DNA of 64,000 bases from Methanothrix sp. (GTDB lineage: Archaea; Halobacteriota; Methanosarcinia; Methanotrichales; Methanotrichaceae): NCBI RefSeq assembly GCF_030055635.1, contig NZ_JASFYM010000011.1:1-64000 (forward strand), in the 5' to 3' direction. This document shows, piece after piece, positions 61,352 to 62,735 of the stretch. The notes under the pieces are model-generated. The model saw nothing but the letters and a program-made list of their open reading frames with translations. It had not been told where the DNA came from and did not search any database. Both the position numbers and the translations under genes were made by a program. Within the stretch, counting starts at the first letter, position 1, and every line of letters begins with the position of its first letter.

Positions 61352-61657
61352 TCACTTTTTGAGCTTCGCCAGTATCTCCTCGACCTCCTTGTAGCCTTCT
61401 TTATACAGCTCCTCCTCGCGCGGCTCAAGCTCCTTCAGAAGCCTCAGGAACTCGCCGGCGTGCACGACCTCCTCATCAGCGATGTCGACGAGCACAGCCT
61501 TCGCGCGATCGTCATCTGTGGACTCTGCGAGCTGCATGTAGAGCTGTATAGCCTCATACTCAGCCGCGATGACATACCTTATCGCCCTCACAAGCTCCTG
61601 CTTGGTCAGCATGCGATCGCTGGCCATGCCCGCAAACGGTGTTGCAAACTCAGGCAT
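61352..61657 (-). CDS. Ferritin-like diiron protein (encapsulin-cargo type)
   Basis: A 101-residue two-helix ferritin-like protein. The iron ligands lie in AAEYEAIQLY and ADEEVVHAGEF, and the C-terminal EGYKEVEEIL helix resembles that fused in front of archaeal encapsulin shells. Alone, this form assembles as dimers of dimers or rings. It probably binds iron for storage or peroxide defence. No encapsulin shell gene is in the window. A GGTGAT ribosome binding site precedes the ATG. Confidence 0.8.
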   Translation of the reverse strand: MPEFATPFAGMASDRMLTKQELVRAIRYVIAAEYEAIQLYMQLAESTDDDRAKAVLVDIADEEVVHAGEFLRLLKELEPREEELYKEGYKEVEEILAKLKK

Positions 61658-61880
61658 CGAAAATCACCAATCTCTTTTTGGGGGATGGGCTGAAATAGTT
61701 GTCGGGAAAGAGGAGAAGCGGCGCGAAGATCACAGGCAGCCATCTTCGCATGTATTCATGATATAAATTTTATTAAAAACCATAGTATGAATAGTTCTGA
61801 GTGTCGTTTCATTTGGACGTATCCAAGAAAGAAATAAATATAGACTCAGTTACTTTATAACTATCCAATATGATATGACA

Positions 61881-61896
61881 TGGCCATTAATGGCCA
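61881..61896. promoter_or_regulatory. Perfect 16-bp palindrome upstream of a small gene
   Basis: TGGCCATTAATGGCCA is a perfect palindrome between a TATA-like ACTTTATAAC (about 61851) and the TTG of the small ORF at 61953. Its position near the expected transcription start fits a repressor site. Confidence 0.5.
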
Positions 61897-61952
61897 GTGA
61901 GAGATAAACTACGAAGGATGGCGATGCCGCAGCAACCATAGGAGGAGGAAAA

Positions 61953-62096
61953 TTGGTCAAGCGCTATGAAACAAAATTCAGGACCCAAAGAGAAGAGCGG
62001 TCGAGTTTAGATGCACTCCCATCCGATATCAGGGAGACCTATCAGGATATTATAAAACATCACAGCCAGCTCCTGGAACTGCTTGCTCAGGAGTAA
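61953..62096 (+). CDS. Possible 47-residue protein, tail-to-tail with the Doc-type gene
   Basis: A TTG frame with GGAGGAGG six bases upstream encodes a charged, mostly helical peptide beginning MVKRYETKFRTQ and ending QLLELLAQE. Its 3' end overlaps that of the Doc gene by 10 bases. The TATA-like box and palindrome upstream support a real gene. No family is recognised. Confidence 0.45.
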   Translation: MVKRYETKFRTQREERSSLDALPSDIRETYQDIIKHHSQLLELLAQE

Positions 62097-62512
62097 TCGT
62101 ATAGGGTTCTCTGCACAGTCGCCCACCAGCGCCTGCTCTTTTTCTTAAGCCATCGCTTGATATCTTCAACATCACATTCATGATCCGAATTGGAAATTTT
62201 ATGAAGAAGCTGATGAATCTCCTCCTCGTCCTGTTTTCCTATCCAGTACCTATAGATTCTTAGAATCATTGCTGCTAGGACAAAAGCGGTTCTTTTATTT
62301 CCATCATAAAATGGATGCAGCCGAGACATGTAGAGAGCCCAGGCGGCCTTTTCGAACACGTCATCAGCACCATTTATCTTATCTAATATATAATCAATTG
62401 TGCCTTCATCTCTTATACCACTTACCTCACCACCCCTTCTTATCAGATCTTCGTGGATTATTATAATTATCCCTTTTTTGAGATCGAATGCCATGGCATG
62501 GACTTTATCCAT
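62087..62512 (-). CDS. Doc/Fic-family toxin-like protein
   Basis: A 141-residue protein with the Fic signature HPFYDGNKRTAF (about 64-75), which places it with the Doc (death-on-curing) toxins of toxin-antitoxin loci. These transfer phosphate or AMP to targets such as EF-Tu. The ATG at 62512 is preferred over a TTG three codons earlier because GAGCTGAT lies eight bases upstream. No standard Phd antitoxin precedes it; the upstream minus-strand frame (MGVCRSIRINC, 34 codons) is poorly supported. Confidence 0.8.
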   Translation of the reverse strand: MDKVHAMAFDLKKGIIIIIHEDLIRRGGEVSGIRDEGTIDYILDKINGADDVFEKAAWALYMSRLHPFYDGNKRTAFVLAAMILRIYRYWIGKQDEEEIHQLLHKISNSDHECDVEDIKRWLKKKSRRWWATVQRTLYDYS

Positions 62513-62735
62513 ATCGAACAATCAGCTCATAAAATCTTCCATATCCGATGCCGATTCCCTCAAACGCCATTCAGTGATCGAAGCCCACGAACAGCAATTG
62601 ATTCTTATGCTTCGGCACACTCCCATGTAGCCCGTCAAAGTATCAGGTTGTGGGATGCTCGCGATTTGTTTATAAAGAGACGCCTCCAGATTCTACCATC
62701 GCATAGATGCATGTAAGAGATTGCAGGTAAGAGAG

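Follow-up and report, generated by a model that had tools for sequence, protein, structure and literature searches.

A Doc toxin gene facing a small convergent gene, probably for a tail-only antitoxin, in Methanothrix and other Methanosarcinia

The Doc locus

Near the right end of the window (the whole 64,000-nt stretch of Methanothrix sp. DNA that was analysed), a Doc toxin gene and a 47-codon open reading frame (ORF) run towards each other and overlap tail to tail, with 10 bp (62087–62096) in common. The features are collected in Table 1. The original prediction had placed a Doc-like gene, a 47-codon convergent ORF and a 10-base 3′ overlap here, and all three are confirmed.

Table 1. Coordinates of the genes and sequence features at the Doc locus of the window
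Feature	Position	Strand	Basis or remark
TATA-like TTTATAA preceding the small gene	61854–61860	+	Sequence; putative promoter
Perfect 16-bp palindrome TGGCCATTAATGGCCA, possible operator	61881–61896		Sequence; not conserved in relatives
Ribosome-binding-site-like GGAGGAGGA before the TTG of the small ORF	61941–61949	+	Sequence
Small gene, putative tail-only antitoxin, convergent with Doc	61953–62096	+	47 aa; family alignments A1, A3 and A9
Codons of residues 24–47, conserved C-terminal part, like bacterial Doc antitoxin tails	62022–62093	+	hhalign aligned residues 25–47
Doc toxin gene (death-on-curing, Fic fold)	62087–62521	−	144 codons, 144 aa; TTG start at 62521

The Doc protein matches TIGR01550 with E 1.8e-13 and 50.8 bits (above the curated cut-off of 38.65) and the Fic family PF02661 with 40.6 (cut-off 24), it is the single PF02661 match in the whole genome, and it carries the catalytic motif HxFx(D/N)(A/G)NKR as HPFYDGNKR. 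Members of the Doc family are kinases that inactivate a translation elongation factor. The best PDB matches to the AF2 model of Doc (pLDDT 87.9) are the P1 Doc entries 3dd7 and 3k33, and the window and P1 proteins have the Doc fold in common (TM 0.70/0.81 to 3dd7, whose PDB title names P1 Doc in complex with the C-terminal domain of Phd). Doc could instead start at an in-frame ATG at 62512, and a HAD-like gene (recognized by eye) lies upstream of Doc and is divergent from it.

The small ORF probably starts at the TTG at 61953. The AF2 model of its product (pLDDT 74.7) has two helices, at residues 3–19 and 24–46, the second of which is the conserved one. Profile scans of Pfam and NCBIfam found no entry for the small family and no DNA-binding family match to the small protein. 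The window protein does not match the whole TIGR02609 (doc_partner) profile; the best NCBIfam hint for the family is a match of one member to TIGR02609 positions 36–74 (E 0.11), and a sequence search against solved antitoxin structures gave no credible match. The only plus-strand T5 run in 62000–62300 lies at 62139–62143, 43 nt beyond the small-gene stop and within lysine codons of Doc, and could terminate the antitoxin transcript. The nearby interval 61352–61657 encodes an encapsulin-type ferritin cargo protein (NF058679 EncB_fam, 97.5 bits against a cut-off of 90), a gene found in six of the six genomes of the genus.

The absence of an antitoxin upstream of Doc, as originally predicted, is borne out: a profile of bacterial Doc antitoxins run against 1754 ORFs of the window found nothing close to Doc, and a 38-codon ORF at 62522–62638, rejected as a Doc antitoxin, has no credible relative in other genomes when 241 loci are compared (best E 0.68). 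Run against the same 1754 ORFs, the small-family profile picks out the 47-codon ORF with E 5.1e-15, the runner-up having E 4.

Occurrence, selection and decay of the pair in relatives

With the window small protein as query, matches occur in 8 of 60 related genomes (16 of 60 with Doc as query), and of 50 genomes from the same taxonomic family, 11 match the small-family profile; Doc paralogs likewise face a small ORF, from a more distant subfamily. The joint alignment A3 extends the small family to 62 of the 237 genomes of the class Methanosarcinia, in 21 of 39 genera and four families. Counting from the antitoxin side, Doc or a Doc remnant is convergent in 60 of 81 loci (one place is included twice, as L158 and L211) and on the same strand in none; no Doc was detected in 20, and one has a small Doc-like fragment in another orientation. 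About 13 small-family loci have no adjacent Doc once false matches are removed, and the small ORF persists in two species where Doc has no match; the small ORF is therefore not strictly bound to Doc.

A census from the Doc side of the same 237 genomes gave, by manual tally, 66 full-length Doc places (matches covering 100 or more of the 122 profile positions with E ≤ 1e-8, shorter ones being left out). The small family is convergent at 47 of these, three of which carry a stop inside Doc; this answers the proposed check on co-occurrence of the 47-residue protein with Doc. At two places (L220 and L221) a small relative lies directly downstream on the same strand, 11 places, all in genus g18, have a conventional upstream antitoxin, and the remaining six belong to a more distant Doc group, several of them adjoining a HepT-like gene (by eye). 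In family f39, a HepT-like gene (by eye) lies directly upstream of the Doc-like genes of L235–L238, possibly a different toxin pairing. The small frame is thus kept with Doc across genera, as the original prediction needed, and since it is so conserved the pair is more than a chance juxtaposition. The distances among Doc proteins and among small proteins are correlated (Mantel r 0.79, reached in 0 of 2000 permutations), which indicates co-inheritance of the two, though not interaction.

Relatives show purifying selection on the small ORF: dN/dS is at most 0.33 in 9 of 11 pairs, which were hand-picked among close relatives and do not include the window's own sequence, and the two exceptions rest on five differences each. 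Among 11 loci of the same family, Doc is intact in three (G000, G009 and G072) and the small ORF is intact in all three; six have an open small ORF facing a broken Doc or a remnant, and two have both broken. The loci L006 (G020:C17) and L007 (G024:C71) have a common Doc deletion, the remnants being judged by eye, and between their small ORFs there are 6 nucleotide differences, 5 of them at third codon positions, so that few amino acids have changed. The antitoxin seems to have been kept after toxin loss in these two genomes, small as the numbers are, and their small ORFs are possible anti-addiction antitoxins.

At the site of the window pair, G004 and G005 have both flanks and no pair, and G001 has a relic of it. 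This patchy presence, together with a small ORF that outlives Doc in some genomes, would also suit a mobile cassette for a kinase and its inhibitor that is not a toxin-antitoxin system, with the small gene, for example, regulating a Doc kinase that acts on a non-toxic target. Such a cassette is very improbable in our view, given that decay is commoner in Doc than in the small ORF, that Doc retains the full HPFxDGNKR motif, and that the tested archaeal counterpart, from Sulfolobales, is toxic (PMC11065993).

Resemblance to known Doc antitoxins

In an hhalign comparison of the small family (A9) with bacterial Doc antitoxins (A8), the two profiles align over their final 23 columns (E 2e-5), whereas the best of 100 column shuffles gave 0.014 and the AbrB part alone 0.2. 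The bacterial partners are of the TIGR02609 AbrB/MazE type (16 of 16 hand-picked upstream antitoxins match that profile), and it is their C-terminal 23 residues that align with the small protein, both ending at the C-terminus. The bacterial proteins have an N-terminal DNA-binding head and are encoded upstream of Doc in the same orientation, whereas the methanogen small protein is head-less and convergent.

The likeness was also visible locus by locus. The 80 named Doc loci include 64 from bacteria, as judged by record title, and in 63 of the 64 an ORF immediately precedes Doc. Among the roughly 100 ORFs of a locus, this upstream ORF comes first with the archaeal profile in 25 of the 63 cases; 20 profiles with shuffled columns put it first in 0 to 7 loci, and the reversed profile does so in 3. 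The archaeal count of 12 of 16 (with a thirteenth, L058, by eye) is not independent, the profile having been built partly from the same species; the bacterial test is independent. The heads that precede such tails are MazE/AbrB and ParD-like, and VapB/DUF7557 in genus g18, where the conventional antitoxins upstream of Doc at L223–L232 have a VapB/DUF7557-like head and a tail end like EDKNILDALGRK. Short ORFs, of 31 residues counted from the probable Met, also lie upstream of Doc in the thaumarchaeal loci L118 (2343–2474) and L126 (266–382); a family scan of the one in L118 detected no DNA-binding head. Judging by the alignments, the methanogen small protein resembles a Doc-binding tail without the rest of the antitoxin; at 23 residues the match is short, and convergent evolution could explain it.

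Among characterized systems, P1 Phd has a DNA-binding N-terminus and a gene upstream of doc in the same operon, unlike the methanogen pair. The FicT-FicA and VbhT-VbhA systems are similar to it in joining a Fic-fold toxin to a small helical antitoxin that has no DNA-binding domain; they differ in their adenylylating Fic class, operon layout and inhibitory-helix motif. Complexes of this kind (3shg and 5jff) are among the PDB matches of the Doc model. Of the hallmarks of a type II Phd-Doc system, the methanogen locus has an adjacent, co-occurring small gene; its antitoxin candidate is neither upstream nor in the same operon, and for an N-terminal DNA-binding domain it offers 47 residues, two helices and no family match.

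The closest parallel in layout is the convergent Phd-Doc pair SiL_0730/SiL_0731 of Sulfolobales (arCOG10132), which has a viral homolog, SMV1 gp44 (Nat Commun 2024;15:3699, PMC11065993). In that study this archaeal Doc is toxic, it is rescued by the antitoxin and by the viral homolog, nonsense mutations in the antitoxin abolish rescue, and a pull-down is shown (PMC11065993). We took the viral gene to be CDF81371, since it has matches in SIRV7-10 and ATSV, both named in the paper. Of 300 genomes from the Sulfolobales phylum, 4 have gp44-like ORFs, at six loci in all, each of them convergent with a Doc match (a weak one in L132). The two systems thus have in common an archaeal Doc with a convergent small antitoxin gene. 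The methanogen family and arCOG10132 are not recognisably homologous by sequence: hhalign gave E 0.26, and a second run gave 0.0066 on nine N-terminal columns with 5.8% probability. The A3 profile ranks the gp44-like ORFs 1, 2, 5, 10, 4 and 6 among the 52–76 ORFs of each locus. The Sulfolobales antitoxin has about 25 extra C-terminal residues relative to the methanogen small protein, and it is carried by viruses, whereas two small-family queries against viral_contigs found no viral copy of the methanogen family; a Doc query there found one weak relative.

A probable tail-only antitoxin and its control

The locus very probably holds a type II toxin-antitoxin pair in which Doc is plugged by a convergent, free-standing, tail-only antitoxin. 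That the small protein is the Doc antitoxin, in a convergent arrangement, is the part of the original proposal that the census of Doc places and the Sulfolobales precedent support; the accompanying suggestions of palindrome binding and antisense control fare less well (below). In this antitoxin, in which no DNA-binding head was detected, a variable N-terminal part would be followed by a conserved C-terminal helix. The helix would be the counterpart of the tail with which bacterial antitoxins of the AbrB or ParD type bind Doc, and would itself bind Doc and block its active groove. Being transcribed towards each other, the two genes cannot be co-expressed as an operon; each would have its own promoter, the two promoters facing, and the antitoxin has no evident means of repressing transcription itself. 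For the methanogen pair the analysis establishes the arrangement, its conservation and co-occurrence, the selection seen in relatives, the likeness of the tails and the Doc fold; toxicity, neutralisation, binding mode, promoters, expression and regulation are what we infer.

The arrangement of the coding ends bears on whether RNA, rather than protein, is the real antitoxin, with the convergent transcript running into Doc as antisense RNA and the ORF incidental. In 40 intact pairs the stop-to-stop gap ranges from −23 to +21 nt, most commonly −15 (11 pairs, from all four families); seven of the 81 loci had been removed from this count, namely L158 (the same as L211), L193, L197 and L200 (matches within a long frame) and L208, L209 and L210 (partial matches). 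The convergent layout would give 3′-complementary transcripts, and the coding ends overlap in the window and in 22 of the 40 pairs; the other 18 have no overlap, selection on the small ORF acts at the codon level, the protein family is conserved in 21 genera, its tail resembles known protein antitoxins, and in Sulfolobales rescue is lost with nonsense mutations (PMC11065993). An RNA antitoxin is therefore very unlikely. Antisense control in addition to a protein antitoxin, as first suggested from the overlapping 3′ ends, is a weak possibility, and it is neither a defining nor a conserved feature of the coding ends, because these overlap in just 22 of the 40 intact pairs.

The 16-bp palindrome predicted near the likely promoter is exact and lies just downstream of TTTATAA. 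The 64-kb window contains three perfect palindromes of this length, so within the window as a whole this one does not stand out, and only its place just past the TATA-like sequence draws attention. In a survey of 38 loci listed by hand, a palindrome of at least 12 bp lies upstream of the small ORF in 5 and in none of the other 33, and a conserved operator was rejected, the longest upstream palindrome averaging 8.0 bp against 7.0 in shuffles of the 38 loci. Binding of the small protein to the palindrome, as had been proposed, is unlikely with no DNA-binding family match and so few loci having such a palindrome. That the small protein is at once antitoxin and its own repressor through this palindrome is highly doubtful on the same two grounds and because the palindrome has decayed in G001 (whose pair is also dead), in spite of its place directly after the TATA-like box and of the perfect 20-bp palindrome, ATAATATTGCGCAATATTAT, that two close relatives (L150 and L157) share some 89 nt before the small ORF.

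We return to the free-standing protein antitoxin. More tentatively, and with rather less confidence than we have in the pair itself, the Doc-neutralising tail may be an independent module, joined to AbrB/MazE, ParD-like or VapB/DUF7557 heads upstream of Doc and free-standing and convergent as its prevailing form in Methanosarcinia; that form would have neither operon coupling nor autorepression, its balance would be set by two facing promoters, and copies without Doc would be anti-addiction antitoxins.

Novelty is limited, since the convergent layout was reported for Sulfolobales in 2024 (PMC11065993); what is new is the methanogen family, its prevalence and its link to the bacterial tail, and searches of an open-access library found no published description of a methanogen convergent Doc pair. 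It is a probable antitoxin family, spread over methanogens and their relatives, that had no annotation, and it suggests a way in which DNA-binding heads and toxin-binding tails are reshuffled. The usual account of type II toxin-antitoxin control rests on operon order and antitoxin autorepression, and a widespread family that appears to do without both makes the balancing of such pairs directly testable.
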